Assembly: GCF_000518865.1 (NCBI RefSeq)
Contig: NZ_JAEK01000001.1
Span: 1-64,000 of the forward strand
DNA length: 64,000 nt
Reading direction: 5' to 3'
Source of the DNA: Bacillus sp. J37
Lineage (GTDB): Bacteria; Bacillota; Bacilli; Bacillales; Bacillaceae
Position numbers and translations under genes: made by a program. The notes under the pieces are model-generated. The model ran no database searches. It had not been told where the DNA came from and was given only the letters and a program-made list of their open reading frames with translations. Shown here in pieces: positions 3,157 through 21,567 of this stretch (position 1 is its first letter; each line of letters starts with the position of its first letter).

Positions 3157-3397
3157 ATCATAACTCTCCTTACACTCATTTTTGGAAAAACTCTCACCTT
3201 TTTGATACATGTTCATAAAATACGTTCAACATCAAATTTTCGTACAAATCGTCCACTAATGTAAGATATTCCAAAAAATGTGATAAGTGCCTGTATGAAT
3301 GGAAGGAATAATGGAGAAAATATTGACGGTAAAATGAATTATTTAGTAATATAAGATAGATGAAAAGAAACAACTACATATTTAGTAAACGTTGATT
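3157..3397. other. Gap between the small minus-strand gene and the valS leader
   Basis: This stretch has no gene I can support. It carries the candidate valS promoter (3323-3352). On the minus strand a 41-codon open stretch (3216-3338) has protein-like content but no usual start codon and no ribosome site. Confidence 0.6.
3323..3352 (+). promoter_or_regulatory. Candidate sigma-A promoter of valS
   Basis: TTGACG (3323-3328) and TAATAT (3347-3352) have an 18-nt spacer. The predicted start falls just before the T-box leader. Confidence 0.55.
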
Positions 3398-3646
3398 GGG
3401 AAGAGTACATTGTCTTCACTTTACAGAGAGAGAGATCATTTGCTGGAAGATTTCTTATGTTGAGGCTTTGGAAGGTCGCCCAGGAGTTACTTCCTTGAAA
3501 GAATAGTAGAAGAGGTCGGTGAAAACCGTTATCATATTGAGTGTATAGAGTTGATTTATGCTTTTTTGCTGAATCAGTCTATAAAAAAAGGTGGTACCGC
3601 GAAATTTTCTCCTTTCGTCCTTTTATGGATGAAGGGAGTTTTTTAT
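3398..3646 (+). promoter_or_regulatory. T-box leader riboswitch controlling valS
   Basis: The leader has the standard parts. GGGAAGAGTA at the 5' end is the AGTA-bearing side of stem I. CAGAGAGAGA and TGCTGGAAGATTTC form the stem I arms. A candidate specifier codon GTC (valine) lies at 3475-3477. The conserved T-box AAAAAGGTGGTACCGCG ends at 3601. The terminator pairs about 3609-3620 with 3627-3638 and is followed by a T-run. Uncharged tRNA-Val should pair with the specifier and the T-box to favour antitermination. The exact specifier register is inferred from its valine identity and a preceding GAA. Confidence 0.9.
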
Positions 3647-6450: not shown

Positions 6451-6474
6451 ACATGGAAAAAGGAGGCTATGTGT

Positions 6475-7791
6475 GTGTGTTCACAGTATGATGATGCAAT
6501 AAACTGGATTCATGACCGTTTAAAATTTGGTGTGAAACCAGGCCTCAAAAGAATGGAATGGCTGTTAAATAAGCTAGACCATCCAGAAAGAAATATCCCG
6601 ACCATTCATGTAGCGGGAACGAACGGAAAAGGGTCCACAATTTCTTATATGCTGCATATCCTTATGGAAGCAGGTTACAAGGTAGGAACTTTTACTTCAC
6701 CTTATATCGAAACATTTAATGAGCGAATAAGTGTAAATGGCCAGCCTATAACAGATGATGAGATGATATCTTTAGTAAATGAAGTAAAGCCTTTTGCAGA
6801 GAAAATAGAAAATACTGACTTAGGCTCACCAACCGAATTTGAAATTATTACAACGATGATGTTTTTATATTTTGGGAAAGTCAATAAACCTGACTTTCTA
6901 TTACTGGAAACAGGACTTGGTGGCCGGTTGGATTCTACTAACGTCATAGATCCTATTTTATCTGTTATTACAAACATAGGGTATGACCACATGAATATAC
7001 TCGGTGACACGATCACTGATATTGCTCGTGAGAAAGCAGGTATCATTAAAAAGGGGAGACCAATTTTCACAGCAGCTGAAAAAAAAGAAGCACTTGAGGT
7101 GCTAGTGCAAACAGCAAAAGAGAAAAATGCTCCTTATTACTCATTTGGTAAAGACATAAGTGTAAAGAACCTCTCACCCTGGGAGCATGGTGAAAAGTTC
7201 TCTGTAAAAACAAAAACCAATACATATGAAGATGCAAAGATTAAGATGAGAGGTAATCATCAAATTAAAAATGCAGCACTTGCTATTTCTGTTATTGACT
7301 ACTTAAAAGAGCAAGGGGCAGTAAAAATAACCTATGATGAAGTTGTAGAAGGAATAAAGAAATCAATATGGAAAGGCCGCTTTGAACTTATTCATCAAAA
7401 TCCGGTCGTGATCGTTGACGGAGCACATAATGATGAAGGAATTGAAAGTTTAATTGATACGATCAAAAGGCATTATCCCCATACACGAATTCATATTTTA
7501 TTCAGCGCACTAAGTGATAAAAATTATAAGAAAATGATTGACCGATTGAGCACTGTTGCGACTACCATGCATTTTACGACGTTTGATTTTCCGAGAGCTG
7601 AAACCGCAATTAACTTATTTTCGTCATGCAGCTTATCAAATAAGTCCTACTCTGAATCATGGCGGAAAAAGTTCGAAGAACTTTTGTTAACCTATAAAGG
7701 ACAAAAGGAAGATGTACTAATCGTTACAGGGTCTTTATATTTTATATCTGAAATAAGAAGTTACTTAATAATGAAAAAAACAAACATGTAA
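6475..7791 (+). CDS. folC: Folylpolyglutamate synthase / dihydrofolate synthase
   Basis: 438 residues. AGGAGG (6461-6466) is 8 nt before GTG 6475 and only 2 nt before ATG 6469, so GTG is preferred. FolC adds glutamate to dihydropteroate and to folates. It belongs to the Mur ligase family: the P-loop is HVAGTNGKGST (about 45-55), SPYIETFNERI is the folate-contact loop, TEFEIITTMMFLYF and LETGLGGRLDSTN follow, and VVDGAHN marks the C-terminal domain. In B. subtilis the next gene is comC; here it is replaced by the pilus locus. The gene converges with the minus-strand minor-pilin genes. Confidence 0.96.
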   Translation: MCSQYDDAINWIHDRLKFGVKPGLKRMEWLLNKLDHPERNIPTIHVAGTNGKGSTISYMLHILMEAGYKVGTFTSPYIETFNERISVNGQPITDDEMISLVNEVKPFAEKIENTDLGSPTEFEIITTMMFLYFGKVNKPDFLLLETGLGGRLDSTNVIDPILSVITNIGYDHMNILGDTITDIAREKAGIIKKGRPIFTAAEKKEALEVLVQTAKEKNAPYYSFGKDISVKNLSPWEHGEKFSVKTKTNTYEDAKIKMRGNHQIKNAALAISVIDYLKEQGAVKITYDEVVEGIKKSIWKGRFELIHQNPVVIVDGAHNDEGIESLIDTIKRHYPHTRIHILFSALSDKNYKKMIDRLSTVATTMHFTTFDFPRAETAINLFSSCSLSNKSYSESWRKKFEELLLTYKGQKEDVLIVTGSLYFISEIRSYLIMKKTNM

Positions 7792-7835: not shown

Positions 7836-7877
7836 GATAGAAGGAATGAAGAGCTAGGATTCCCCAGCTCTTCTATC
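7836..7877. terminator. Terminator between convergent folC and minor-pilin genes
   Basis: GAAGAGCT (7848-7855) pairs with AGCTCTTC (7866-7873). An alternative outer pairing is GATAGAAG (7836-7843) with CTTCTATC (7870-7877). T-rich sequence follows on the plus strand. It can serve both converging transcripts. Confidence 0.65.
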
Positions 7878-7879
7878 TT

Positions 7880-9322
7880 TTAATTCATTTCCTTTATAGG
7901 CCCTATTGTAAGGTCTGGTTCTTCAACTTCCTGCTTAAAGAATGGTAATAAGGTATTTTCATTAATCTCTTTGTACGTTACCCAGCTACCGCCGTTAATG
8001 GAAAAATAGTCAGAAATGACTGTCCCTATAACTGAGCCACTCCCTGTTAATTGCACCTGTGCAAGAGGTGCAAAAACGAGTCCATTGGCAGCACTGCCCG
8101 CTCCGTTAATTGAAATGTTCTTTCCAAGTGTTAATATGTTTCCGGTTATTTGAGCACTTCCTCCAATAGTAATGTCGGCAGATTCAGCGAAAAAGGAACC
8201 GACCAGTCTTACAGCCCCTCCTGTATCAATAGGAGAAGACCCTTTGTAAAAGATTGTTAGCTTTTCAGGTCCGTTCGAGGAGTTGAAATTGACCTTGCTT
8301 CCATTAGTAATGATAAATGTATTTTCGATATAGAGAGTTAGCTTACCAGAACCAATAATTCGAATGTTCCCTTGATTAAGGATAAGGTCTTTTACTCTAA
8401 TAACTTGATCTTCATTTCCAACATCAATTGTTAAGGTTCGGTCACTTGTAACTGTGATGTTTTGGTAATAGGCATTTTTATTGATGGTCATATCATTAGC
8501 TGGACCACCTTCAATCTTTAAATTGCGGGCGGTGGGAAGTTCTTCCGGAAAAAATGGAAACTTTACAATATCTTTATAGTTCATTGGTGATGGCAGATTG
8601 ATAAATGATTTTACAAAATTCATATGTTGAGGCTTTTTAACAATATTATGTTTCGCTTCAGCCACCTTATAAATACTACCATTCAAACTAGCAGACCAAT
8701 CTACTTCAATAGCTGCTTGGGTTGTAGAGTTTGTTCCAATATGACCATTAATAGTTGAATTAAGAAAAATATCATTATGACTAAATACCGCCATATTGTC
8801 TAATAGTTGAATAGATGAGTTTCCATCTCCGGTTGTATTCCAGTTCACACAGAATGTTTTTTCCACTGTTCTGGACCTCGTTCCTATTTCACCTTCAGAA
8901 ACGATTTTAAAACCTTGTGTTTGTTTTTCTTCGGCATTTCCACATGCTTGCATGGTATTGCTTGAAGATAATTTATATATGTCTAAGTTTGCTTTTGGTT
9001 GTTCGCCGAAAGATTTCTCAAAACCACTATAAGTATCTGGTATATCAACTAATTTTTCATTGATTTCAGAAAAAAAATCATTTTCATTTGTTGCATCTAT
9101 GTCATCAAGAATTTTTGTCACTTCGTTCAGGACATAAGTAGTACCTGATTCTGCAATATAATAGGTTGCTTGATAATCTCTTTCAACTGAACTCATTTTT
9201 ATATTTGCAGCTGACGTTCCTATGAGAGTAATCCCTAATAATGAAATAACTAATAAGACAATCAGCACAGCTACTAATGCAAATCCACTTTCTTCATTTT
9301 TTATTCTCTTAAAAACGGTCAT
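7880..9322 (-). CDS. Large PilX/GspK-like minor pilin with beta-rich C-terminal domain
   Basis: 480 residues from ATG, with AGGTGA 5 nt upstream. The N-terminus has a type III prepilin signal: a short charged leader ending EESG, then FALVAVLIVLLVISLLG. The Glu normally at mature position 5 is absent, as in GspK and PilX proteins that cap the pilus. A region of about 160 residues follows. From about residue 185 to 450 the sequence is a long run of short beta-prone, Gly/Asn/Ser-rich segments suggesting a beta-helix. It is the last of three co-directional minor-pilin genes; the gap to the preceding gene is 8 nt. A tip or adhesive role is inference. Confidence 0.8.
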   Translation of the reverse strand: MTVFKRIKNEESGFALVAVLIVLLVISLLGITLIGTSAANIKMSSVERDYQATYYIAESGTTYVLNEVTKILDDIDATNENDFFSEINEKLVDIPDTYSGFEKSFGEQPKANLDIYKLSSSNTMQACGNAEEKQTQGFKIVSEGEIGTRSRTVEKTFCVNWNTTGDGNSSIQLLDNMAVFSHNDIFLNSTINGHIGTNSTTQAAIEVDWSASLNGSIYKVAEAKHNIVKKPQHMNFVKSFINLPSPMNYKDIVKFPFFPEELPTARNLKIEGGPANDMTINKNAYYQNITVTSDRTLTIDVGNEDQVIRVKDLILNQGNIRIIGSGKLTLYIENTFIITNGSKVNFNSSNGPEKLTIFYKGSSPIDTGGAVRLVGSFFAESADITIGGSAQITGNILTLGKNISINGAGSAANGLVFAPLAQVQLTGSGSVIGTVISDYFSINGGSWVTYKEINENTLLPFFKQEVEEPDLTIGPIKEMN

Positions 9323-9330
9323 TGTTTCAC

Positions 9331-9753
9331 CTAATTTCTTAAATAGATAGAAGTAGATACTTTTATTGGTTGTTCTTCTTTTAAAGGAAGACTTTCAATG
9401 AAAAGATCCATTTTCTTTTTTTCCTCGTTATCAAAAGCAAAAATGAACCGGTTAATATTTTTAATAAAGACTGTATTATTTTTCATAATTGTGTTTGAAT
9501 CGAGCGTGTATTTATCTTTTAAATTAATAATTAATACATCATCTTGTATAGTAACACTCTCTGCCGTTCTTATTTCTTTCGTAATCATATTGAGAGCAGT
9601 TCTAATATTTGCCTGGTTTTGTATTTCGTCCGTTTGACTGGTCATTTGCTTTTGACCAAAAAGATGAAAGGAATTTACCAAAAGAAGAATAATAGATATA
9701 AGAGAAATAGATGCAATTACCTCTATTAAACTAACGCCGCGTTGGTTTTTCAT
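9331..9753 (-). CDS. Minor prepilin (PilW/GspJ-like)
   Basis: 140 residues from ATG 9753. The N-terminus MKNQRG|VSLIEVIASISLISIILLL is a textbook prepilin peptidase site with Glu at mature position 5, followed by one hydrophobic helix. The rest is a small globular domain with alternating beta segments (AESVTIQDDVLIINLKD). It lies between the other two minor-pilin genes with gaps of 8 and 19 nt, so one operon is likely. The PilW/GspJ label comes from position and general form; sequence similarity is too weak to be sure. Confidence 0.8.
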   Translation of the reverse strand: MKNQRGVSLIEVIASISLISIILLLVNSFHLFGQKQMTSQTDEIQNQANIRTALNMITKEIRTAESVTIQDDVLIINLKDKYTLDSNTIMKNNTVFIKNINRFIFAFDNEEKKKMDLFIESLPLKEEQPIKVSTSIYLRN

Positions 9754-9772
9754 CTTTTAATCTCCTTCCATA

Positions 9773-10204
9773 CTATGGTAGTACCGTTTCCATTTGTGCC
9801 TCTAACTTTTGTTTGGATTGATCTTCATAAATTTTAATAATAACGTGTGGTAGCGAATCGTGAGAATTTAAATGGGATAGTTCTGTCCTAACATAATAGC
9901 CGTTCTCTTCTTTGTGAAAGCATAAGCTGCTGCTTTGGCAATTTGCTAAATCTTCTTCATATCCTAAATCTATAAGTTCATTTTGGAGTGTAACATCTGA
10001 GTTTTTACTTATAAAATAAATATCTTCCAAAAGAGATTGAGCAACATATGTAGCATCAATCATCTCTTCAGATTGACTAATAGTACGTGCTGATTGAATA
10101 AACAATGGTATAAAAGAAACGACAATGATACCAAGTATTACGATAGCAACTAATATTTCAATCAAGGTTATTCCCTTTTGGGATCGAATGGACTTATTTA
10201 TCAA
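9773..10204 (-). CDS. Minor prepilin (PilV/GspI-like)
   Basis: 143 residues from TTG at 10204; GGGAG lies upstream, about 12 nt away. The leader MINKSIRSQKG is followed by ITLIEILVAIVILGIIVVSFIPLF, giving a G|I cleavage site and Glu5. Further on are SEEMIDATYVAQSLLEDIY, a pattern typical of GspI/PilV proteins, and a pair of cysteines (CQSSSLC) that could form a disulfide. It is the first gene of the minus-strand minor-pilin operon and is divergent from the main pilus cluster across a 262-nt gap. Confidence 0.82.
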   Translation of the reverse strand: MINKSIRSQKGITLIEILVAIVILGIIVVSFIPLFIQSARTISQSEEMIDATYVAQSLLEDIYFISKNSDVTLQNELIDLGYEEDLANCQSSSLCFHKEENGYYVRTELSHLNSHDSLPHVIIKIYEDQSKQKLEAQMETVLP

Positions 10205-10466
10205 CGGGTAATTGTTCTCCCTTCAAAAGTCGAATGTTTTTTACAAATATTCACTATGTATCATGGTAGATAATAGGTGTAAAAGCCTATCGGTATGAGT
10301 CGAAAGTAGTTGTATGATTAAAAAATACCTTCTTTTAAATAGGCCGACTTTATTATACAATAAGTTATAGTCGAATTTTGTCTTTTTTTAGTTAGTTTTT
10401 ATTAAAAAATTGGTAAAAATAATAGAAAAATAGGAATAAATACTCAATAATTGGTGGGGTGAAGGT
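10205..10466. promoter_or_regulatory. Divergent intergenic region with nested inverted repeats
   Basis: This gap must hold the promoters of both pilus transcripts. GCCTAT (10285-10290) and GGTAT (10292-10296) are complementary, in nested order, to ATACC (10325-10329) and ATAGGC (10339-10344). A TATAAT on the minus strand (10352-10357) is a possible -10 for the minor-pilin operon, which would place the nested stem in its leader. I could not fit it to a known riboswitch class, including c-di-GMP types I and II. Confidence 0.4.
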
Positions 10467-11654
10467 TTGGAGGCATTTTTATTACTCTTAGCTGGATTTG
10501 TATTACTAGTGCCAATTATGTATATTGTGCCATTTGGTATACATATAAAAGGTAAAATGGTTCTAGCTGCAATTGCTTTGTTATGCGCAGCATTATTTAC
10601 TATATCGATTCATGTCATACCAGCTTGGCAAGCAGCAGCAGCAATTTTTGTCATACTGGTTTTAGTTGGATATTTATTAAGTGTAAAACAAGTTTTATTT
10701 GAGCAGGAAAAGCTTCATGAGGTAGATGATTTAGGAATTGAAGTTAAGGATCAAAGGAATAATGGACTGGTAGAAAATACTCAAACCATACCTATAGAGT
10801 CATTTGTAGAAACAGATGATATAGAGAAAGAAAAGATAAGTAATGAAGAAAAAAGTGATATGTCTGCAGTAAAAGGAGAAAAGGAAGAGGCTGCCGATTC
10901 AGTTGAACAATTTGAGGAGAACCCTTGGATGAATGAGGAATTATCTAATGAGCACAAAGCCAAGATAAATTCACTTTCAGAGGTTGCAGCTACAATCGAT
11001 GATGAAACAGTTTTGAAAACCGACAAACATGGAGTTTATGACGACTTTTTATTTGAACTGTTTGAAGGCCGCGAAAGTCAAGAGATCATAGAAGAGAACA
11101 CAACAGAAAAAGTAAATGATCCACATATGGGTGTGTCCAATGACTGGAACGAACTCTTTGAAAATTTGATGAACGATAAAGATTCGAGAGATATTTTAGA
11201 AACGTCTGACTCCCTAGTAGTTGAATTTGAGTCAGGAAATAAAGAAAAGGTATTTTATGAAGAAAATGTTGAAGATGAAGTAATGGTAGAAATTCATGAG
11301 GGTATTTTACCTAAAGAAGAAGGAAATCCAGATGAAGATATTTTTCATATAGAAATCAATACAGAAATACAAAAGTCTAACAAAAAGGATTTGCCTAATA
11401 ATGTTTTGGATATGCTTCTCAATCAATTTCAAATATACAAACAAGTTCTACCTCCTGCAGACTATGAACAAATTTTACAAAAAGCGATTGAGGAAGCCAA
11501 ATCTGAAAAAGACTGCTTTTTATTTGCGAAAGAGCTTTTATTTTATTACGTGCAAACAGACAATAAGGATAAATATGACCTGTTAATACGTGATATGAAT
11601 GAGAAATTGAGAAATTATCCAATCTTAATTCAACAGTTATTATGGATACAATAA
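10467..11654 (+). CDS. Acidic membrane protein of the pilus locus, function unknown
   Basis: 395 residues from TTG 10467, with a GGGGTGA-type ribosome site. Three hydrophobic helices occupy about residues 1-20, 29-48 and 53-72. The remainder is a long, highly acidic, probably disordered cytoplasmic region. A final helical segment (about 305-395: NNVLDMLLNQFQIYKQVLPP...) looks like a small folded helical domain. I do not recognise a family. It is the first gene of the main pilus strand, 36 nt ahead of the PRC-barrel gene, so co-transcription with pilB is likely. A scaffold or regulatory role at the pilus base is a guess. Confidence 0.7.
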   Translation: MEAFLLLLAGFVLLVPIMYIVPFGIHIKGKMVLAAIALLCAALFTISIHVIPAWQAAAAIFVILVLVGYLLSVKQVLFEQEKLHEVDDLGIEVKDQRNNGLVENTQTIPIESFVETDDIEKEKISNEEKSDMSAVKGEKEEAADSVEQFEENPWMNEELSNEHKAKINSLSEVAATIDDETVLKTDKHGVYDDFLFELFEGRESQEIIEENTTEKVNDPHMGVSNDWNELFENLMNDKDSRDILETSDSLVVEFESGNKEKVFYEENVEDEVMVEIHEGILPKEEGNPDEDIFHIEINTEIQKSNKKDLPNNVLDMLLNQFQIYKQVLPPADYEQILQKAIEEAKSEKDCFLFAKELLFYYVQTDNKDKYDLLIRDMNEKLRNYPILIQQLLWIQ

Positions 11655-11690
11655 TCGTTATTAAAAGTATAGAGAATAGGTGTGTGCATA

Positions 11691-12458
11691 ATGAAGAAAA
11701 GTACTGAAATTATAGGTTTACCAATTATTGGTATTTCAGCCGGACTGGAGCTTGGCAGTGTGAAATCACTTGTTGTCAATCCTGAGAAAGGTACAGTTGA
11801 TTTCCTAACTGTTGAGCATGATGACTGGCAAGTAAGTATTAAAGCTATTCCATTTAGTAAGGTGATTGGTATTGGTGAATTTGCGTTAACAATTGATTCA
11901 GATAATGCCATTATTGATTTAAATGAAATACCAATTGCCAATCAACTTGTGAACAAGCGTATTAAAATTACAGATACTAGAGTTATCACCCGTAAAGGCC
12001 AGCTTCTCGGAGAAGCGAAAGAGTTCTTTGTGAATGAAGATACGGGACATATCATTGGATTACATTTAAATGTTAATAACCTAGATGTATTTATTAAATC
12101 AGAGCTTGTCCTTACTTTTGGAAAGGACATTCTGGTAGTAAAAGAAGAAGCTTCTAATGAATTGTTACATTCTGCAGAAAGCTTACTTGAAAACTCTGAA
12201 TACGAAGATGAAGTAATTGAAGATATTTCTCCAGTTCATGAAGTGAAGGGAGAACTCTTGAGTATTCAGGAGGTTGATTCAATGAAAGCAAAGCAAATTG
12301 ATTTACTCGAAGGTAAAACGGTCATTAAAGATATTTACGGTGCAGACCAGCAAGTTATTATTGAAAAAGGCACAATGTTAACAATTAATGACATCAAAAA
12401 AGCGCAGGATGAGGGTCCTAGTACGTTTGTTGAACTATCAATGAATACAGAAATGTAG
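11691..12458 (+). CDS. PRC-barrel domain protein
   Basis: 255 residues. ATG 11691 is preferred over GTG 11682 because AGGTG lies 7-11 nt before it. Two PRC-barrel-like repeats are visible: about 1-80 (STEIIGLPIIGISAGLELGSV ... VNPEKGTVDFL) and about 85-150 (NKRIKITDTRVITRKGQLLGEA ... VNEDTGHIIGL). A C-terminal acidic tail ends in a short beta-rich segment. PRC-barrels are small beta domains used in RNA processing and as membrane-associated adaptors; B. subtilis YrrD has a similar arrangement. No signal peptide is seen, so it is cytoplasmic. Its role beside pilB is unknown. Confidence 0.8.
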   Translation: MKKSTEIIGLPIIGISAGLELGSVKSLVVNPEKGTVDFLTVEHDDWQVSIKAIPFSKVIGIGEFALTIDSDNAIIDLNEIPIANQLVNKRIKITDTRVITRKGQLLGEAKEFFVNEDTGHIIGLHLNVNNLDVFIKSELVLTFGKDILVVKEEASNELLHSAESLLENSEYEDEVIEDISPVHEVKGELLSIQEVDSMKAKQIDLLEGKTVIKDIYGADQQVIIEKGTMLTINDIKKAQDEGPSTFVELSMNTEM

Positions 12459-12476
12459 AAGGAGTAACCGATTTTA

Positions 12477-13817
12477 ATGGCAAACAGCTGGTTGAAAATA
12501 GTTAGTATATTACTTATTTCCACTGTTTATTTAGTTAGCTTCACACATATCGGTGTTATGGCATATGACACATTTCTGAAAAAAGGCTCATTTAAACCAG
12601 GTACTCAAATTGCCTCTATTCAGCTAGAGAACATGACAAAGACACAGGCTGAAAAGGAATTGGAGGAAAAGGTGGCCGCTTGGTTTGCAGAAGAAAACCT
12701 TCAGCTTCTCATTAAAGGAGAGAAGGTTGTGATAAATGAGTTCTTTTTTACCTTTGATTTTCCTGCCACTATTGAGCGAGTCAACGATGGGAAAGGAAAT
12801 GAGTTTGTTGTACATGTCAATCAAGATGTGTATGAAGCAGATTTAAAAAGCGTATTACAAGACCAATATGAAGCAATCGACCATGATCTTATACAATCCA
12901 CTCTTATTAAGTCTGTTAATAACATGCTAAGTGAGAAACAATATTTTACGGTTGAAGCCTTTATGAGAGATGATGTTGATACAATTGCAGCCGAAAATAC
13001 ACTGACAGCATCATTTAATCAAGAAGATGTTCAGAAGGTACTTACTGTCCTTGGGGAAGTGAAGGTCCCGGCTCAATCACAAATCTCTTTTCTTGAATTG
13101 ATTGGAACATCAACGAATCTTTCGCAAGACTCGCTTCATATTGTTTCTTCGGCTATTTATAAAACGTTATTATTGACTAACTTTATAGTTGTTGAACGAC
13201 AAACAAGTGTAACATTACCGAAACATATTGAGTTAGGATATGAAGTTTTTATTGATCCGGATACGTCTGATTTTAAATGGTTTAATCCTAATGAAACGGC
13301 TTATACACTTATCTTTGATTTAAAGAATGATCATCTAAATGTCAAAGTAAATGGTACCCCTTTCCTGCAAAACTATCGCGTGAAGTTTGAAGATAAAACA
13401 TCCTATTCTCCAAAGACAATTGTCCGCTATACGAGCTTACTAGATGAAGGAGAAGAGGTAGTAAAGCAGGCTGGTCAAGAAGGTCTTTTAGTGAAAGTAT
13501 TCAGGGAAGTATATGATGGGAACGATGTGTTAGTTACATCTGAACAGATATCAGAGGATTTTTATCCACCTGCACATAGGGTTATTGAAACGGGACTAAT
13601 TAATAGAATGGTAGAAAATGCTATAAAAATAGTTGATGAGGGAAGTTCTCAAAGCTTAGATGATGACTCGACAAATTCAATGGAAAGCTCTGAAAGTAAT
13701 CAATCCTCTGAGGAACAAGTCAATGATAAAGATGGAAATGAACCATCAGAAACGGAAACAAGTGCTACACAACGTGATGGACTATGGGAAACTCCTACAG
13801 AAGCATTAGAAAAATAA
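12477..13817 (+). CDS. Membrane-anchored G5-domain, peptidoglycan-binding-like protein
   Basis: 446 residues from ATG 12477 (GAAGGAG upstream). An N-terminal signal-anchor (about 6-30) precedes an extracellular region. ASIQLENMTKTQAEKELEE resembles the start of the YoaR/VanW-type putative peptidoglycan-binding domain. About residues 320-375 look like a G5 domain (EVVKQAGQEGLLVKVFREVY ... SEQISEDFYPPAHRVIETG). The C-terminal ~70 residues are Ser/Glu/Asn-rich and probably disordered. It lies 24 nt before pilB. A wall-contact role that helps the pilus cross peptidoglycan is plausible inference. Confidence 0.75.
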   Translation: MANSWLKIVSILLISTVYLVSFTHIGVMAYDTFLKKGSFKPGTQIASIQLENMTKTQAEKELEEKVAAWFAEENLQLLIKGEKVVINEFFFTFDFPATIERVNDGKGNEFVVHVNQDVYEADLKSVLQDQYEAIDHDLIQSTLIKSVNNMLSEKQYFTVEAFMRDDVDTIAAENTLTASFNQEDVQKVLTVLGEVKVPAQSQISFLELIGTSTNLSQDSLHIVSSAIYKTLLLTNFIVVERQTSVTLPKHIELGYEVFIDPDTSDFKWFNPNETAYTLIFDLKNDHLNVKVNGTPFLQNYRVKFEDKTSYSPKTIVRYTSLLDEGEEVVKQAGQEGLLVKVFREVYDGNDVLVTSEQISEDFYPPAHRVIETGLINRMVENAIKIVDEGSSQSLDDDSTNSMESSESNQSSEEQVNDKDGNEPSETETSATQRDGLWETPTEALEK

Positions 13818-13841
13818 CTTCGAGAAAAAGAAGGGATTTAC

Positions 13842-15503
13842 ATGAACGATACAAGAAAGAGATTAGGAGATTTACTGCTGGATTCGGGTCTTATTACAGA
13901 TGAACAGTTACAATCAGCTTTGGCTGAAAAGCAAAAGGGACAACGACTAGGAGATGCATTGCTGGAAAAAGGATATATTACCGAGCAGCAATTAATTGAA
14001 GTTCTGGAGTTTCAATTAGGAATTCCGCATGTTAGTTTGTATCGCTTTCCCTTTGATCAGAAGCTTATAAAGCTGGTGCCTAAAGAAATGGCGAAACGAA
14101 ATCTCTTAGTTCCAATAAAAGTGGAAGGAGATAAGCTATTCGTTGCGATGGCTGATCCGATGGATTTTTTTGCGATTGACGATCTTCGTCTTGCAACAGG
14201 TTTTCACATTGAGACAGCTATTGCTTCAAAGGACGATATCCTAAGAACAATCAACAAATATTATGAAATTGATGATAGCATGTCTGACATCATGAATCAG
14301 CTTCCGGTCCAAGATGAGGTGCAGGAGGAGAAAATCACGAGTGATGATTCACCAGTTGTTCGGCTCGTGAATCAAATTCTCCAAAATGCAGTCCAGCAAA
14401 AAGCAAGTGATATCCATATTGACCCTCAGGAAACAAAAGTACTCATCCGTTTTCGTGTTGATGGAATGTTAAAAAATGAGCGAACATTTCCAAAGCATAT
14501 GCAAAGTGTGTTAATAGCACGTTTGAAAATCATGGCAAATTTAGATATAACGGAGCATCGTGTACCACAGGATGGAAGAATTAAGATGCATATAGAATTC
14601 CATCCTATTGATTTGCGTGTCTCAACACTTCCTACCATTTATGGTGAAAAAATTGTTATGCGTATTTTAGATCTTGGCAGTACCTTAAATGATCTGACTA
14701 AACTAGGGTTCAATCGATTAAACTTACAAAGATTCAAAGAGCTTATCGAAAGTCCGACAGGGATTTTACTTATAACCGGTCCTACAGGTTCCGGAAAATC
14801 ATCGACATTGTACGCAGCTTTGAACCATTTGAATTCAGAAGAAGTGAATATTATTACGATTGAAGATCCTGTTGAATATCAGCTTGAAGGTATTAACCAA
14901 ATACAAGTAAATCCCAATATAGGGATGACGTTTGCAAAGGGATTACGTTCTATCCTTCGTCAAGATCCGAATATTATTATGGTTGGGGAAATCCGTGACC
15001 GTGAAACAGCAGATGTTGCGGTTCGTGCATCTTTAACTGGACACTTGGTCTTAAGTTCACTGCATACAAATGACTCACTTGGAACGATTACCCGTTTAGT
15101 TGATATGGGAGTTGAGCCATTTTTAGTTGCTTCTTCTCTAACAGGGGTTGTTGCACAACGTCTTGTTCGAAAAGTATGTAGAGACTGTTCGGATGAACAG
15201 CAAGCTACACAAAGAGAAATTGAGATTTTTGCCAAACGAGGGCTGACGATTGACCGTGTAGTTAGAGGCAGGGGCTGTGGTACGTGTAATATGACTGGTT
15301 ATAAAGGGCGGTTTGCGATACATGAGCTGCTTGTTTTAAATGATGATATGAAAAAAGTCATTATGAATAGTGAACCATTTTCAAGGCTTCGAGAGCTTGC
15401 GATAAAGCATAAAACAATTTTTTTAATTGATGATGGACTGCTAAAGGTGAAACAAGGCTTGACAACAACAGAAGAAATATTACGCGTAACCGTAGCGGAG
15501 TAG
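13842..15503 (+). CDS. pilB: Type IV pilus assembly ATPase PilB
   Basis: 553 residues. It powers pilin polymerisation at the inner face of the membrane. The N-terminus carries two RLG-starting motifs (about 7-30 and 35-58: RLGDLLLDSGLITDEQL and RLGDALLEKGYITEQQL), matching the tandem layout of the c-di-GMP-binding MshEN domain. Next is the ASDIHIDP segment, then Walker A GPTGSGKSSTLY (about 312-325), the Asp-box ITIEDPVEYQL, Walker B with RQDPNIIMVGEIRD, and the His-box GHLVLSSLHTND. Near the C-terminus is a zinc-binding tetracysteine site (CRDC ... CGTC). It heads the core block pilB-pilT-pilC. Confidence 0.96.
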   Translation: MNDTRKRLGDLLLDSGLITDEQLQSALAEKQKGQRLGDALLEKGYITEQQLIEVLEFQLGIPHVSLYRFPFDQKLIKLVPKEMAKRNLLVPIKVEGDKLFVAMADPMDFFAIDDLRLATGFHIETAIASKDDILRTINKYYEIDDSMSDIMNQLPVQDEVQEEKITSDDSPVVRLVNQILQNAVQQKASDIHIDPQETKVLIRFRVDGMLKNERTFPKHMQSVLIARLKIMANLDITEHRVPQDGRIKMHIEFHPIDLRVSTLPTIYGEKIVMRILDLGSTLNDLTKLGFNRLNLQRFKELIESPTGILLITGPTGSGKSSTLYAALNHLNSEEVNIITIEDPVEYQLEGINQIQVNPNIGMTFAKGLRSILRQDPNIIMVGEIRDRETADVAVRASLTGHLVLSSLHTNDSLGTITRLVDMGVEPFLVASSLTGVVAQRLVRKVCRDCSDEQQATQREIEIFAKRGLTIDRVVRGRGCGTCNMTGYKGRFAIHELLVLNDDMKKVIMNSEPFSRLRELAIKHKTIFLIDDGLLKVKQGLTTTEEILRVTVAE

Positions 15504-16553
15504 GTGAAGACATTGAAGGCAAAAATAGATTCGATCTTAAAGCTTGCCTATGAAAAGCAGGCTTCAGATATTCATTTATCAGTTGGGGTACCACCTGTAA
15601 TGAGAATGAATGGTGATTTAGTAAAAATAGGACAGGATATCCTGCTCCCTGCTGAAACTGAGGAAATGGCAAAAGCAATCATTTCAACATTGAAGTGGCC
15701 AATGTTTATGGAAAAAGGAGAGCTGGACTTTTCATACGGCCTACCGGGTATATCACGTTTTCGTGTAAATGCATTCAGGCAGCGTTCTTGTATATCACTG
15801 GCTATTCGGATCGTACCAAGAACAATTCCTACACTTGATGAGTTGCATTTGCCTGCTATTCTAAAAAAAGTCGTTGAAAAGCCGCATGGCCTTATATTGG
15901 TAACAGGTCCAACTGGAAGCGGGAAATCTACAACTCTTGCATCAATGATCCACTACATGAATCAGACGATGAGGCGTCATATTATAACATTAGAAGATCC
16001 GATTGAGTATTTGCATAAACATCAGCAATGTATAGTCGATCAACGTGAGGTTGGTTTTGACACAATCAGCTTTGCCACAGGGTTAAAATCGGCATTACGT
16101 CAAGACCCTGATGTCATATTAGTCGGAGAGATGCGAGATCTTGAAACGATTCATACCGCAATAACTGCAGCAGAAACAGGGCATTTAGTCTTAGGTACAC
16201 TTCATACTTCTTCAGCAGCATCAACCGTTGATCGGATTATCGATGTTTTTCCGGCAACTCAGCAGCCACAGATACGTCTCCAGCTTGCATCAGTTCTTGT
16301 TGGGATAATCTCGCAAAGACTATTCCCAACTAGCGATAAAACTGGCAGGCGTGCTGTGATTGAAGTATTACTAAATAATTCTGCTATATCAAGCTTAATT
16401 CGAAATGAAAAAACCTATCAAATTCCTAGCGTGATTCAAACAAGCCGGGCACATGGAATGCAATCCTTTGAGAGCTCGTTAATGGAATATGTAAAATCAG
16501 GTATTATTTCAGCTGAAACTGCCATACCATTTAAACAAGGGACGACAGAATAA
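15504..16553 (+). CDS. pilT: Type IV pilus retraction ATPase PilT
   Basis: 349 residues from GTG, which directly abuts the pilB stop; TTG 15513, 5 nt after AGGTGA, is an equal alternative and would remove three residues. PilT depolymerises the pilus, giving twitching movement. It has the PilT start (KQASDIHLSVGVPPVMRMNG), Walker A GPTGSGKSTTLAS, TLEDPIEYLHKH, RQDPDVILVGEMRD, and the family-specific GHLVLGTLHTSSAASTVDRI. The AISSLIRNEK stretch corresponds to the AIRNLIRE motif needed for retraction in PilT. These features separate it from a second PilB. It overlaps pilC by 1 nt. Confidence 0.95.
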   Translation: MKTLKAKIDSILKLAYEKQASDIHLSVGVPPVMRMNGDLVKIGQDILLPAETEEMAKAIISTLKWPMFMEKGELDFSYGLPGISRFRVNAFRQRSCISLAIRIVPRTIPTLDELHLPAILKKVVEKPHGLILVTGPTGSGKSTTLASMIHYMNQTMRRHIITLEDPIEYLHKHQQCIVDQREVGFDTISFATGLKSALRQDPDVILVGEMRDLETIHTAITAAETGHLVLGTLHTSSAASTVDRIIDVFPATQQPQIRLQLASVLVGIISQRLFPTSDKTGRRAVIEVLLNNSAISSLIRNEKTYQIPSVIQTSRAHGMQSFESSLMEYVKSGIISAETAIPFKQGTTE

Positions 16554-17761
16554 TGGCAAGATTTAAATATGAAGGTCGTGACCGTACCGGAAAAAAAACA
16601 GGGAAAATATCAGCAAATTCAAAACGTGAAGCAGTATTAAAGCTTAGTGAACAAGGAATACGTATGATCAGTATTGAAGAAATTCCTGAAACGTTTCTTA
16701 CGAAGGATATTGCAATTGGCAATCCTGTTAAACTTCAAGACTTTGTTATTTATTTAAGGCAATTTTCCACCCTATTACGTGCGGGTGTAACGATTGTAGA
16801 TGCTACAAATATTCTCTCAAAACAAACCAGCAGTAAGGCATTACGAAATGCACTTGAACAAATGGAAGAGGATTTAAAATCAGGACAGGCTTTATCTGTT
16901 AGTGCAGCAAAGCATAAACGGATTTTTTCTTCGATGTTTGTGAACATGATTAAAGCCGGTGAAGCAAGTGGAAGTATGGAAGAGACACTTGACAGATTAG
17001 CGATTCAATATGAAAAACAGCATAGAACAAAGCAAAAAATTCAGTCAGCCTTAGCCTATCCAATGGCAGTTGCGATCGTAGCCATTGTTGTTGTTATATT
17101 CTTATTAGTATCTGTTGTTCCTACCTTCGTGTCAATGTTTGAAGGCTTTGGAGCACAGCTGCCGGCTATTACGTTATTTGTCTTAAACTCTAGTATTTTT
17201 ATGCAAGAATACTGGTATGTCGTTATCCTGTTTTTTGTTGCGATTTTCGTTGGCTTTTATGCTTTACGTAAAAATAAGAAGACGAGATATTATATAGACA
17301 TGATTGCATTAAAAATGCCGATATTTGGGAGCATGATACAAAAAGCAGTACTTGCCAGAATGACAAGGACACTTAGTTCGTTATTTTCAAGTGCAGTACC
17401 TATTCTTCAATCCTTAATGATCGTAGAAAAAATCGTCGAAAATGAAGTGATATCAGAAGTATTGGCGAAATCACGAACTTCATTAGAAAACGGAAGATCT
17501 CTAACAGAGCCAATGAAACAGCATTGGGCCTTTCCGCCGCTTGTTACACAAATGATCGCGATAGGTGAAGAAACGGGTTCTCTTGATGAAATGCTAGGAA
17601 AAGTAGCCGATTTCTATGAAGAAGAAGTAGAAAATAGTACAGATCGTTTAAAGTCATTAATAGAACCGCTAATGATCGTTCTTTTAGCAGGGATCGTTGG
17701 TACTATCGTTATTGCAATAATTGTTCCAATGTTTGATATATTTAATCATATACAGATGTGA
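16553..17761 (+). CDS. pilC: Type IV pilus inner-membrane platform protein PilC
   Basis: 402 residues; the start overlaps the pilT stop (TAATG). It is a polytopic platform that couples the ATPases to the pilin. It has the short N-terminal RFKYEGRDRTGKKTGKI segment and two GspF domains, each about 120 residues (DFVIYLRQFSTLLRAGVTI and ARMTRTLSSLFSSAVPILQSL). Membrane helices lie near 165-190, 215-235 and 370-395, the usual three-helix pattern. The tight coupling to pilT fits a single transcription unit. Confidence 0.95.
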   Translation: MARFKYEGRDRTGKKTGKISANSKREAVLKLSEQGIRMISIEEIPETFLTKDIAIGNPVKLQDFVIYLRQFSTLLRAGVTIVDATNILSKQTSSKALRNALEQMEEDLKSGQALSVSAAKHKRIFSSMFVNMIKAGEASGSMEETLDRLAIQYEKQHRTKQKIQSALAYPMAVAIVAIVVVIFLLVSVVPTFVSMFEGFGAQLPAITLFVLNSSIFMQEYWYVVILFFVAIFVGFYALRKNKKTRYYIDMIALKMPIFGSMIQKAVLARMTRTLSSLFSSAVPILQSLMIVEKIVENEVISEVLAKSRTSLENGRSLTEPMKQHWAFPPLVTQMIAIGEETGSLDEMLGKVADFYEEEVENSTDRLKSLIEPLMIVLLAGIVGTIVIAIIVPMFDIFNHIQM

Positions 17762-17780
17762 ATTTACAAAATTTTTATAT

Positions 17781-17807
17781 TTGTAGTTAGATAGTATCAG
17801 GTATAAT
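17781..17807 (+). promoter_or_regulatory. Candidate promoter ahead of the major pilin gene
   Basis: TATAAT (17802-17807) has TTGTAG (17781-17786) 15 nt upstream, a short spacer. It lies in the 91-nt pilC-pilin gap. Separate transcription of the abundant major pilin would be expected. Confidence 0.45.
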
Positions 17808-17852
17808 GAATAAGAATTAGATAGAATGAACTACTATTTAGGAGGAGAAAAG

Positions 17853-18305
17853 ATGTTGAAGAAATTAATGAAAAATGAGCGAGGTTTAACATTAATTGAG
17901 CTATTAGCAGTTGTTGTTATTTTAGGAATTATTGCTGCGATTGCGATACCGGCTATTGGTGGGATGATTAATAACTCTAGAATTGATGCACATATTTCTA
18001 ATGCTCAACAAATTGCGAATTCAGCAAGGCTATATGTAGCATCTGTTGATCCCGATGCAAAAAAAATTACTCTTGAGCAATTAATTGAAAAAGACCTGTT
18101 AGAGAGTATTGATGATCCACAAACTGATGGAAATTACGATGAAAGTACGGTTGTAAATTTAGTAGAAGTTAGTGGAGACCTTGAATATCAAGTACAATTA
18201 TTCCCTGATGGGTCTGAAACAGGGTACATTAAAGTAAGTGATATTCCAGATGCAAATGATTTAACAAGAGAAGATTTTAAAGAAGCTAAGGTAGAATCTA
18301 AATAA
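17853..18305 (+). CDS. pilA: Major type IV prepilin
   Basis: 150 residues. ATG 17853 has AGGAGG (17840-17845) 7 nt upstream; an earlier in-frame ATG at 17826 precedes that site. The prepilin leader MLKKLMKNERG is cleaved before LTLIELLAVVVILGIIAAIA, with Glu at mature position 5. The transmembrane/polymerisation helix continues to about residue 36, followed by NAQQIANSARLYVAS and a small acidic globular head without cysteines. The own promoter, strong ribosome site and downstream hairpin suit a highly expressed subunit. The gene is called pilA by position and form; it could equally be named a GspG-like pilin. Confidence 0.9.
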   Translation: MLKKLMKNERGLTLIELLAVVVILGIIAAIAIPAIGGMINNSRIDAHISNAQQIANSARLYVASVDPDAKKITLEQLIEKDLLESIDDPQTDGNYDESTVVNLVEVSGDLEYQVQLFPDGSETGYIKVSDIPDANDLTREDFKEAKVESK

Positions 18306-18321
18306 AATAAAACTATAGGTG

Positions 18322-18350
18322 GATAGTCCTTGATTGGACTATCTATCTTT
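18322..18350 (+). terminator. Hairpin after the pilin gene, likely partial terminator
   Basis: GATAGTCC (18322-18329) and GGACTATC (18336-18343) form a perfect 8-bp stem with a 6-nt loop, followed by a T-rich but interrupted tract. It would lower read-through into pilD-pilO relative to the pilin. Confidence 0.7.
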
Positions 18351-18373
18351 CTATTAAAAAAGGAGCTACCAAA

Positions 18374-19147
18374 ATGCCAACAATTATCATCCTACACACC
18401 TATATCTTCATCCTAGGCGCAGTCCTCGGCTCCTTTTACAATGTCGTAGGCCTGCGCATCCCAATCAAAAAATCGATCGCATACCCTGGCTCAGCCTGCC
18501 CTGTATGCAGCGAAAAATTATCAGCAGTTGAATTAATCCCAATCCTATCCTACCTATTTCAAAAAGGTAAATGCCGAAATTGCAAAACTTTTATTTCACC
18601 GTTATATCCTTCAATGGAGTTACTCACCGCAATTCTTTTTACGATTTCACCGCTATTGGTGGGATGGTCAAAAGAATTGGTTATTGCCTGGACACTTATC
18701 TCATTATGTATGATTGTGATGGTTTCTGATTTAAAATATATGATTATCCCTGATAAAGTAAATGTATTTTTTCTTTTCCTATTTTTAGGAGAACGCCTTT
18801 TTATCCAAACAGATCCTTGGTGGGATCCATTTGCAGGGTTAGTGATTGGAACCTTAGTACCGCTTATCATTATTTTAGTAAGTCGCGGCGGCATGGGTGG
18901 CGGTGATATGAAGCTATTGGCTGTATTAGGACTTGCCTTAGGATGGAAACTTGTATTATTATGCTTTTTTCTAGCTACATTAATTGGTACAGTCGTTGGT
19001 ATTATTGGGATGATGATGGGCTTTATTAAAAAGGGAAAACCTTTCCCGTTTGGTCCATTCCTTGTGATCGGTGCATTAATTGCCTATTTTTTTGGCAATG
19101 ATCTTATCCGATTATATCTAACTTATTTTTTCCCTTACTTCTATTAA
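18374..19147 (+). CDS. pilD: Prepilin peptidase PilD/ComC
   Basis: 257 residues from ATG, with AAGGAG upstream. A membrane aspartyl protease (A24 family) that cleaves prepilin leaders and N-methylates the mature end. It contains the cytoplasmic zinc-type CPVC ... CRNC pair (about 38-70), the first catalytic Asp in MVSDLKYMIIPD, and the second in the GGGDMKLLAVLG (GxGD) motif, with about eight membrane helices. It occupies the comC position and may also serve the competence pseudopilins. The first ~60 codons are unusually rich in C-ending codons compared with the rest of the gene. Confidence 0.95.
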   Translation: MPTIIILHTYIFILGAVLGSFYNVVGLRIPIKKSIAYPGSACPVCSEKLSAVELIPILSYLFQKGKCRNCKTFISPLYPSMELLTAILFTISPLLVGWSKELVIAWTLISLCMIVMVSDLKYMIIPDKVNVFFLFLFLGERLFIQTDPWWDPFAGLVIGTLVPLIIILVSRGGMGGGDMKLLAVLGLALGWKLVLLCFFLATLIGTVVGIIGMMMGFIKKGKPFPFGPFLVIGALIAYFFGNDLIRLYLTYFFPYFY

Positions 19148-19161
19148 GAGAGGTTCTGAAT

Positions 19162-20157
19162 ATGGCATATCGTTTATTTTCTCAAAAACAACAAACAGTA
19201 AATTTATATATATCAAATTATTCCATTCAATTACTCGAGCTTAAAAGTATGGATCCATTAGTCGTTCACCGTTTCTATGAAAGCTATCTTCCTGAGGGGA
19301 TAGTAGCAGATGGGCGAATAAAAGATGCAGATAAGCTATCCATGATATTGGGGCAATGTATCCAAGATTGGGGCATTAAGAGGAAACAAGTCCGTTTTAT
19401 TACACCAGATGCTTTTGTAAGTGTCCGAAAGGTAATGGTACCTGTTGATTTAAAGGATGATGAAATAAAAGGATATCTTTATTTAGAGATCGGTCATAAT
19501 ATTCACTTACCATTTGAAGAGCCTGTATTTGATTTTGTTCCATTGCAAGAAAATGAAAAAGATAAGGAAATTCTATTATTTGCAGCACCTGAAGCAATCA
19601 TTAATGATTATACTGAGTTATTAGATGATCTAAAACTAGAAGCGAGTGCAGCCGATTTATCGGCACTCTCTCTTTATCGTTTACTTTTTCATCAAGAACA
19701 TGTGTCTGAGAAGGAAAATACCCTTCTAATAGAGGTAAAGCTTGATTCAATGAATTTAAGCATCTTTGAACAGTTAAAACCAATTTTCACCCGTCATTTA
19801 CCTTTGGATGGCATGCTTACAAATTGGTCTTATAAACTGGATCCCGAAACAAAACTTTATTATCAATACGAAATAAAAGAAAAGGAATTAATGCTTAACC
19901 ATTTCCGTGATACTGTGATGGAAATTGAAAAAATTATTAATTTCTATCGTTTTACACTTCACCAAGGAGACCATCAAATTACTCAGATTATACTTTTGGG
20001 TGATAATCCATATATAGAGAAATTTATGGAGATCTTACAAGAGTCGGTGACAATGATTAATGTGTCCCAACCACTAACAAAGGTGTACACACATAAAAAC
20101 ATGGCTGTTCCTAAAAAGTTTCATACTGTGCTTGGATTAGCATTAAAAGAGGTGTAA
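19162..20157 (+). CDS. pilM: Type IV pilus assembly protein PilM
   Basis: 331 residues. Actin-like (FtsA fold) cytoplasmic protein of the alignment subcomplex. The start (QTVNLYISNYSIQLLELKS) is the first beta-hairpin of the fold. RKQVRFITPDAFVSVRKVMVP and IKGYLYLEIGHNIHLPFEEP match the PilM region that precedes the nucleotide-binding site. A second actin-like half follows. Gaps to pilD and pilN are 14 and 8 nt. PilM normally binds the N-terminal motif of PilN, which is present in the next gene. Confidence 0.88.
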   Translation: MAYRLFSQKQQTVNLYISNYSIQLLELKSMDPLVVHRFYESYLPEGIVADGRIKDADKLSMILGQCIQDWGIKRKQVRFITPDAFVSVRKVMVPVDLKDDEIKGYLYLEIGHNIHLPFEEPVFDFVPLQENEKDKEILLFAAPEAIINDYTELLDDLKLEASAADLSALSLYRLLFHQEHVSEKENTLLIEVKLDSMNLSIFEQLKPIFTRHLPLDGMLTNWSYKLDPETKLYYQYEIKEKELMLNHFRDTVMEIEKIINFYRFTLHQGDHQITQIILLGDNPYIEKFMEILQESVTMINVSQPLTKVYTHKNMAVPKKFHTVLGLALKEV

Positions 20158-20165
20158 AAGCAATC

Positions 20166-20750
20166 ATGTTAGCGGAAATCAATTTACTCCCACAAAAACA
20201 ACAACGAAATTATACCAATTTACTGGTATTGCTGAGTATTGCCATCGTTCTATTAGCAGGGGCTGTTACTGTTTTAATGATGGTTAACCAAAAAAATGAG
20301 CAAATAACACAACTTGAACAAGAATACCAGCAGGTTCAGCAACAAACAGCAGTGCTTCAACAACAGGCAAGTCAAGATGATTCATCTAAGGCTGTAGCTG
20401 AATTGGAAAAAGCGATTGAGTGGTCTACGGAATATCCAATTGACTTTGTCCCTCTGTTAAATGAATTAACGAAAAATCTTCCTGAAAATGGGTATTTTTA
20501 TAGTTTGGAATATGCAAACAATGCCTCTTTAAACTTACTTGTTCAATTTGAATCTTCAAGAGAAGCGGCATATTATTTAAAACGGTTAAAAGATTCTGAG
20601 TTAATCAATGAAGTGAAGCTCGTTACTGTTGAAGCTGTTCCACTGGAGGATCAAGAAGATACAGTTCCACGTTATTTAGCAACCTATGAACTGTCAATAG
20701 ATCGAAATGCGGTAAAGGCTTTTCAAGAAGGGAGAGTGAGCAATGATTGA
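20166..20750 (+). CDS. pilN: Type IV pilus assembly protein PilN
   Basis: 194 residues. The first residues, MLAEINLLPQK, contain the INLLP motif that docks into PilM. A single membrane helix follows (about 19-40), then a Gln-rich coiled coil (about 45-75) and a ferredoxin-like extracytoplasmic domain. It overlaps pilO by 8 nt (ATG 20743 within the pilN end), so the two are translationally coupled. PilN and PilO form the membrane heterodimer that links the motor to the outer parts. Confidence 0.9.
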   Translation: MLAEINLLPQKQQRNYTNLLVLLSIAIVLLAGAVTVLMMVNQKNEQITQLEQEYQQVQQQTAVLQQQASQDDSSKAVAELEKAIEWSTEYPIDFVPLLNELTKNLPENGYFYSLEYANNASLNLLVQFESSREAAYYLKRLKDSELINEVKLVTVEAVPLEDQEDTVPRYLATYELSIDRNAVKAFQEGRVSND

Positions 20751-21504
20751 GTGGAGAAAGAAGCATACAATCCTCACAGTTCTCGCTGTCATTTTAACAG
20801 GTTTATTTGTGTATTTCTCATCTATACTCCTCCTTCAGCCAAAAACACTGGAGATTAAAAGCTTGCAAGGTCAAATTGACACAGAACATACACTTATCCA
20901 AACACTTCAAGCTTCCAATGAAGGAGGTAGTGAAGGGACGCTGCTGTCAGCGGTTGAATTACAAAAGATATTACCTGTCAGCCCATTTGAAGAGCAGTTT
21001 TTATTAGATTTAGAGAAAGCTGAAACCATCTCAAACAGTTTGATTACAACCTTAAACTTCCAAGATGGGGAAACTGTGACAGCCGAAGATGATGATGAAC
21101 TAGTCGAGGCATATGATGAAAAACTAGACCCCGAGAGTGAAACAGCTGGTAGTGAAGATGCTGCAGAGACGACAACATCAGATGTTATGCCAGAAGGAAT
21201 TGAAAAATTAACGGCTGAATTGTCTGTAACTTCTCCTAGCTATGTTGAAGTAGAGGAGTTTCTTAGACAGTTGGAAAGTACAAAAAGAATTACACAAATT
21301 GAGTCTGTTCAAGTAGAGGGAAAACAAGAACTTACACAATTAGCAGAAAATAGTGAGGAAAGTGAATTTACGTATCAAGTGGTTGTCTCGACATTTTATT
21401 TACCGAATCTTGAAGAACTAAAAAGTCAACTCCCACCCTTCAACACACCTCCACCAGGAGATAAAGAAAATCCGTTTATAAATTTAATAGATGAAGATGA
21501 GTAG
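20743..21504 (+). CDS. pilO: Type IV pilus assembly protein PilO
   Basis: 253 residues. One N-terminal membrane helix (about 10-30), a short coiled coil, then a two-part ferredoxin-like domain. Between the two halves lies a strongly acidic, probably disordered insert of about 40 residues (around 109-148, Asp/Glu/Thr/Ser-rich) that is not typical of PilO. A Pro-rich tail follows. It is the last pilus gene and is followed by a terminator. Assignment relies on position after pilN, length and topology; sequence conservation in this family is low. Confidence 0.8.
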   Translation: MIEWRKKHTILTVLAVILTGLFVYFSSILLLQPKTLEIKSLQGQIDTEHTLIQTLQASNEGGSEGTLLSAVELQKILPVSPFEEQFLLDLEKAETISNSLITTLNFQDGETVTAEDDDELVEAYDEKLDPESETAGSEDAAETTTSDVMPEGIEKLTAELSVTSPSYVEVEEFLRQLESTKRITQIESVQVEGKQELTQLAENSEESEFTYQVVVSTFYLPNLEELKSQLPPFNTPPPGDKENPFINLIDEDE

Positions 21505-21535: not shown

Positions 21536-21567
21536 GGACAAGACGACAAATGTCTTGTTCTTTTTTT
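21536..21567 (+). terminator. Terminator at the end of the pilus operon
   Basis: GGACAAGAC (21536-21544) pairs with GTCTTGTTC (21552-21560) over a 7-nt loop, followed by seven T residues. Confidence 0.85.

Follow-up and report, generated by a model that had tools for sequence, protein, structure and literature searches.

A type IV pilus locus around the sole prepilin peptidase gene of a Metabacillus-like bacterium, and the comC-only arrangement as its probable remainder

Why should a prepilin peptidase gene stand between folC and spoIIB? In Bacillus subtilis, we take this place to be that of comC. In the window, by which we mean the whole 64,000-nucleotide stretch of Bacillus sp. J37 analyzed here (NCBI RefSeq assembly GCF_000518865.1, contig NZ_JAEK01000001.1, positions 1 to 64,000), the same place, between folC and a SPOR-domain gene, holds 14 intact genes. 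They encode PilB, PilT, PilC, PilA, PilD, PilM, PilN, PilO, three minor prepilins, and three accessory proteins. On the basis of gene content and comparison with relatives, we consider it highly likely that a Metabacillus-like bacterium here encodes a complete type IVa-like pilus, probably a retractable one, in a locus that surrounds the only peptidase gene detected in its genome, and that comC-only lineages have lost the rest of such a locus.

Identity of the locus and its peptidase

The first-pass annotation of this DNA had proposed a full type IV pilus (T4P) locus between folC and spoIIB, and the genes that it listed all correspond to open reading frames at that place. Matches to PilB, PilT, PilC, PilD, PilM, PilN, and four prepilins exceed the Pfam cutoffs, the prepilins being recognized by their class III signals (three N_methyl matches and one PilX_N match). 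PilT, which had been taken at first pass to suggest a dynamic, motile pilus and does argue for a retractable one, scores 479.1 bits against the curated NCBIfam cutoff of 319.1 (TIGR01420). PilO is assigned by its order, its size, and a custom profile that recurs after PilN in relatives; its sole Pfam match is to PilN, at 15.4 bits and below the cutoff. With the ComGA model, PilB scores 278.5, below the cutoff of 300, and the locus does not encode ComGA-GG. The lack of a secretin noted at first pass extends to the whole genome, in which none was detected by a search that was positive in 6 of 14 genomes as a control; a type II secretion system is thus not indicated. The absence of PilP, also noted at first pass, gains no weight from a PilP search whose control was positive in no genome.

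A genome-wide search of the 5.3-Mb assembly (96 contigs) retrieved one prepilin peptidase, the pilD of the locus. Four T2SSE matches exceed the cutoff, namely, PilB, PilT, ComGA, and one weak match (26.5 bits), and no second PilB/PilT set was found in the genome; the first-pass annotation had named a second peptidase and PilB set as the finding that would speak against it. The comG genes form a separate operon (C87:192 kb) about 170 kb from the pil locus, in the order comGA, comGB, comGC, four more short frames, and a shikimate kinase-like frame, the com names being given by reading and by what we take to be the usual order. With a single peptidase detected, comG encoded apart from the pil locus, and PilB and PilT sets not duplicated elsewhere, it is very probable that the pilus and ComG share PilD, in line with the earlier suggestion, and the ComG pilins encoded at that distance would also be processed by it.

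Distribution in the order

The first-pass annotation implied that pil genes at the comC site are something out of the ordinary, a picture that is not supported: across the order this site commonly carries the locus, and it is the comC-only arrangement that looks like a remainder. Of 397 genomes sampled from the order, 264 have a PilT (TIGR01420) above the cutoff; these fall in 42 of 47 family codes, and genomes with and without PilT occur side by side in 24 codes. PF01478 matched 394 of the 397. B. subtilis therefore represents its order poorly, two-thirds of the genomes sampled having a gene for PilT. We annotated 180 loci, comprising 100 fetched stretches (73 around PilT, from about 150 best-scoring matches, and 27 around the peptidase of PilT-negative genomes among the matches listed) and 80 named loci (the best 80 of 509 from a PilD-alignment scan). 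PilB, PilT, PilC, and PilM are all full length in 127 of these, 125 of which also have PilD on the stretch. SpoIIB, Maf, or RadC lies on the stretch in 108 of the 127 full loci and none of the three in the other 19. Of the accessory genes, G5 is on 107 full loci, p395 on 88, and PRC on 41; PRC never occurs without p395 in this set, and in L068 and L168 the pair as a whole lies at the locus's far end. The position of pilD varies, following pilO in some loci (e.g., in Sporosarcina, Psychrobacillus, and Planococcus). Among variants seen in passing, T4P loci L104, L106, L132, L135, and L209 have PilB and PilC without PilT on the stretch, and L117 (genome G126) has a tandem pair of T4P loci, in the first of which no PilD separates PilA from PilM.

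Probable repeated loss around a retained pilD

Twenty-six of the 180 loci lack a full T4P but have PilD in the interval from folC to SpoIIB/Maf. We searched these intervals by tblastn with 1,476 T4P proteins, using stretches from the same loci as controls, and retrieved pil remnants in 10 of the 26 intervals and in 0 of the 26 controls. The loci with remnants include those of Cytobacillus horneckiae (L190), Neobacillus massiliamazoniensis (L195), and Parageobacillus caldoxylosilyticus (L179). The deletions themselves can be seen in a pair of loci with the same genus code, L060 and L130, which are colinear in blocks from folC to mreB at 76 to 93% DNA identity: L130 has one deletion running from the minor prepilins through most of pilC and another from within pilM to within pilO, and between them pilD is intact. 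Related genomes likewise differ in state, as in Mesobacillus foraminis (L199), with PilD alone, and M. subterraneus (L202), with the full locus. Within the family code of the window, PilD is the only pil gene next to folC in every one of the 10 genomes with genus code g2, and the locus is present in the four genomes of genus code g3 and in G344. The loci L131 and L136 have full-length G5, PilM, PilN, and PilO beside PilD, and PilB, PilT, PilC, and PilA were not found there.

The state changes at least 17 times on a tree of the flanking genes (FastTree; Maf, RadC, and MreB; 94 rows) and 20 on a PilD tree, both being minimum counts that carry no direction and were taken from trees whose branch support was not weighed. 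PilD distances follow those of the flanks (r = 0.58; the highest of 500 permutations gave 0.20). A direction for the change, namely, loss, comes from the remnants, and for those 10 loci. On this basis, the preferred reading of the comC-only arrangement is that it is what a T4P locus left behind after recurrent loss, in which the other pil genes would have been lost and pilD kept because ComG still needs PilD.

A ComZ-like minor prepilin and a predicted cyclic di-GMP switch

The large minor prepilin pX (positions 7880 to 9322, minus strand) combines PilX_N with a DUF7305 β-solenoid in Pfam and lacks a glutamate at +5 as read from the sequence. A profile search of the Protein Data Bank (PDB) with pX retrieved ComZ (6qvi) as the sole match at E values up to 0.1 (E = 2.8e-4), and an AF2 model of pX gave three Foldseek matches below 0.001, all to ComZ (E = 1.2e-5 to 1.5e-4). 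Both the profile and the predicted fold thus point to a pilin with an inserted β-solenoid of the ComZ kind. ComZ of Thermus thermophilus is a tip pilin with two DNA-binding lysines; its binding of DNA is described in PMC6561018.

In many relatives, pX is adjoined by an apparently secreted protein with a vWA or Big_2 domain; no such vWA or Ig-like adhesin lies beside pX in the window. Among the 22 distinct vWA-type frames, 19 end in tryptophan after a flexible-looking tail, the others being a weak match (63 bits) and two short neighboring frames in L179 that probably derive from a single broken gene; the second, Big_2 type (L158 to L162 and L240) ends in tyrosine or tryptophan in 6 of 6 cases. 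Examples beside the minor prepilins are L112:3521-6319 and the frames in L149, L152 to L157, and L163 to L166. In the 49 loci in which folC and pX are both visible, 22 of the 24 with a pX of at least 340 bits, a limit set after the scores had been seen, also encode the adhesin, as does 1 of the 25 others, whose pX is short; the pX of the window scores 179. A tree of 47 rows yields 7 independent pairs, of which a mean of 6.2 change in the same way and none in the opposite way (median P = 0.03), and the adhesin and a high-scoring pX may move together merely as neighbors. The tryptophan-ending vWA/Big_2 proteins are a possible monoderm counterpart of PilY1. Separately, the protein beside pX at L083:665-1582, which was scanned, has ankyrin repeats, and related proteins lie beside pX in L079, L085, and L128; three of these four are in loci with the second adhesin family, and the flank of L128 was not fetched.

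The N terminus of PilB matches the tandem MshEN model NF053729 at 66.1 bits (cutoff, 38) as well as PDB entries of MshE and PilB, and an MshEN motif is present in all 55 aligned PilB proteins (54 relatives and that of the window) at an E value of 0.001. A predicted cyclic di-GMP (c-di-GMP)-binding PilB is described for related T4P in passages of PMC9765702. These matches suggest that c-di-GMP may gate PilB. The genome has nine GGDEF matches, and the best of these to the profile of the cyclase that adjoins the locus in relatives cover its C-terminal part only. That cyclase, a GAF-GGDEF protein assigned from three members scanned with Pfam and a membrane part recognized by eye, is encoded on 26 of the first 100 loci, mostly adjoining folC, and on 11 of 20 further flanks; the window lacks it at this position. 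It lies between folC and the pil genes in L038:2064-3776, L058:3606-5354, and L130:12036-13772, and it remains in the pilus-less loci L113, L115, L130, L133, L170, L194, and L239.

Layout of the locus and a proposed mechanism

Three minor prepilin genes (7880 to 10204) are on the minus strand, and the 11 genes from p395 to pilO (10467 to 21504) are on the plus strand. Between these two transcription units lies a divergent region (10205 to 10466), which by gene layout may hold the promoters; promoter-like matches in the scanned region are not above chance (44 found versus 54.5 expected). Next to pX are minor prepilin 2 (9331 to 9753; N_methyl, G|VSLIE) and minor prepilin 3 (9773 to 10204; N_methyl, G|ITLIE). 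The plus-strand unit begins with p395 (10467 to 11654), judged by eye to be a membrane protein, with a long acidic region, a C-terminal helical-looking segment, and no Pfam family match in the Pfam scan. It is followed by a PRC-barrel protein (11682 to 12458; Pfam) and, directly before pilB, the G5/VanW membrane protein (12477 to 13817; Pfam), which consists of an N-terminal helix, a weakly peptidoglycan-binding-like part, the G5 domain, and a low-confidence tail. Then come the genes for the extension ATPase PilB (13842 to 15503; PF00437, 457.7 bits, and MshEN), the retraction ATPase PilT (15504 to 16553), the platform protein PilC (16553 to 17761; PF00482 in two stretches), the probable major prepilin PilA (17826 to 18305; N_methyl, G|LTLIE), the peptidase PilD/ComC (18374 to 19147; PF06750 and PF01478), PilM (19162 to 20157; PF11104), PilN (20166 to 20750; PF05137), and PilO (20743 to 21504).

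Terminator-like hairpins, each a consensus match only, follow pX (7848 to 7873, minus strand; 11 pairs, 6 GC), lie between pilA and pilD as a possible attenuator (18317 to 18348, plus strand; 13 pairs, 5 GC), and follow pilO (21536 to 21560, plus strand); 12 were found in the region versus 8.9 expected. On the minor-prepilin side, the locus is flanked by folC (6469 to 7791) and, beyond it, by a valS frame, named by reading, with an upstream T-box leader (window positions 3383 to 3625). On the other side, beyond pilO, are the SPOR-domain gene (21630 to 22646), spoIIB-like by domain and place, and then maf, radC, and mreB in that order.

From these parts, a working scheme can be conceived in which PilD would cleave the prepilins PilA, minor 2, minor 3, and pX; PilB, its extension activity gated by c-di-GMP through the MshEN motif, would extend the fiber through PilC within a membrane frame of PilM, PilN, and PilO; and PilT would retract it. 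The G5 protein might anchor the machine to the cell wall, and minor prepilins 2 and 3 with the ComZ-like pX would cap a putative tip as a receptor.

Weighing the alternatives

Several observations count against the interpretation given so far. Pili, transcripts, and movement are here predictions from sequence, and some of the proteins of the locus fall short of curated models. PilB has the PilB model as its best NCBIfam match at 625.7 bits (cutoff, 675.65), with GspE almost equal at 614.8; PilC matches GspF (369.3; cutoff, 424) better than the PilC models (348.2 and 322.2); and PilM reaches 102.5 bits against the TIGR01175 cutoff of 133. The scores of PilB and PilC would suit a pseudopilus that does not retract, or a machine for secretion, in place of a T4P, a reading that we nonetheless regard as very improbable given a PilT above its cutoff in the same gene row, PilM and PilN, and a genome without a detected secretin. 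That the locus is silent or decaying, as the decaying copies in relatives L113, L130, L179, and L195 might suggest, is also improbable with all 14 frames of the window open. Rather more can be said for a pilus that mainly catches DNA, its ComZ-like tip binding DNA and working in transformation beside or instead of ComG: ComZ, which binds DNA, is the sole profile match and accounts for all three Foldseek matches at the E values given above, and the peptidase is probably common to ComG. Such a role is nevertheless doubtful, since a comG row is present, the fold match to ComZ is low (TM scores of 0.28 to 0.32 at 11 to 14% identity), and by VIA Z, ice-binding folds match the pX solenoid better than ComZ does (15.6 versus 13.7), so that other ligands fit. 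On the sharing of PilD, the sample speaks in both directions. In its favor, exactly one peptidase is found in 182 of the 264 PilT-positive genomes; against it, 81 of them have more than one (two in 70, three in 9, and four in 2), and 1 has none. Of the 133 PilT-negative genomes, 90 have one, 33 have two, 7 have three, 1 has four, and 2 have none.

The history of the site could also be turned around, with comC alone as the old state and the T4P inserted horizontally and gained frequently at that site. In favor of this, 25 of the 35 tested comC-only loci have no remnant (16 of the 26 above and all 9 testable g2 genomes, one g2 genome having no recognized SpoIIB), and passages of PMC9765702 place a T4P on a mobile element in Paenibacillus thiaminolyticus. 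Comparison with five loci shows, moreover, that the window locus is a mosaic drawn from no fewer than three of them. Its flanks are nearest those of Metabacillus bambusae, the nearest fetched relative by flanking genes (RadC, 93%; MreB, 97%), its PilB, PilT, PilC, and PilD are nearest those of M. kandeliae (PilT, 78% versus 67%), and its pX and minor prepilins 2 and 3 are nearest those of Fredinandcohnia onubensis (40, 50, and 38%), the pX of M. kandeliae lying off its stretch. Across 70 T4P loci, RadC distances correlate at 0.83 with those of MreB and at 0.65 to 0.70 with those of five pil genes (PilB, 0.67; PilD, 0.65). The mosaic and these weaker correlations suggest that alleles have been exchanged in place, and such exchange could restore a lost locus. 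Set against a history of gain are the remnants, absent from every control stretch, the paired deletions of L130 relative to L060, the SpoIIB, Maf, or RadC neighbors of 108 full loci, and the recurrent state changes, a minimum count without direction by itself. We therefore consider frequent gain unlikely and retain repeated loss around pilD as the better account of the comC-only loci.

Significance and comparison with known systems

If repeated loss is correct, the lone peptidase gene of B. subtilis between folC and spoIIB, far from comG, would be explained; most simply, lone comC would be the one gene of a vanished pilus operon that was still indispensable for competence. Going further, we tentatively envisage an ancestral ComZ-tipped T4P that used the same peptidase as ComG and disappeared many times, leaving B. 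subtilis-type comC as an orphan pilD, with the remaining pili gated by c-di-GMP and the tip pilin traveling with exchangeable adhesins, perhaps docked by their C-terminal aromatic residue. Such adhesins on a tip pilin would, if real, give monoderms a counterpart of PilY1, and both the ComZ-like tip and the switch by c-di-GMP that we predict are directly testable. The locus itself is of a kind already reported for the Bacillales, and the value of the finding lies in the explanation by loss and in the tip and c-di-GMP features; the new details are the ComZ-like pX, the MshEN motif in PilB, the G5 membrane protein before PilB, and the cyclase and adhesins of relatives. We found no report of a folC-spoIIB T4P loss series or of vWA/Big_2 proteins beside minor prepilins in the open-access literature, a search that did not cover subscription papers.

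T4P operons of Bacillus and Geobacillus have been in print since 2011. Passages of that study (Imam et al.; PMC3244431) describe pil operons in Bacillus sp. NRRL B-14911, Geobacillus, and Exiguobacterium, one pil beside one com operon, with a pilD/comC homologue wherever a com operon occurs; they neither compare the folC-spoIIB interval nor trace a series of losses. The Com (ComG) pilus of Bacilli resembles the present system in having a prepilin peptidase at the comC position and differs in a machinery listed without PilM, PilN, and PilO, according to passages of PMC7212644; the ComGA of this genome, encoded in the separate gene row, starts without an MshEN part. ComZ shares with pX an inserted β-solenoid but belongs to a diderm host, and DNA binding by pX is a candidate function. 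The T4P of Clostridium perfringens and Clostridium difficile are also Gram-positive systems with a c-di-GMP-binding PilB, according to PMC9765702; those of C. difficile are under a c-di-GMP riboswitch, as a reference title there has it, whereas none is found at the Rfam gathering score in the window. The T4P of P. thiaminolyticus clinical isolates, which passages of PMC9765702 relate most closely to those of C. cellulolyticum and NRRL B-14911, is also similar: it combines an MshEN PilB, PilT, PilC, PilD, and PilM/N/O in one cluster, and it differs in lying on a mobile element, whereas the T4P of the window occupies the folC-spoIIB site.

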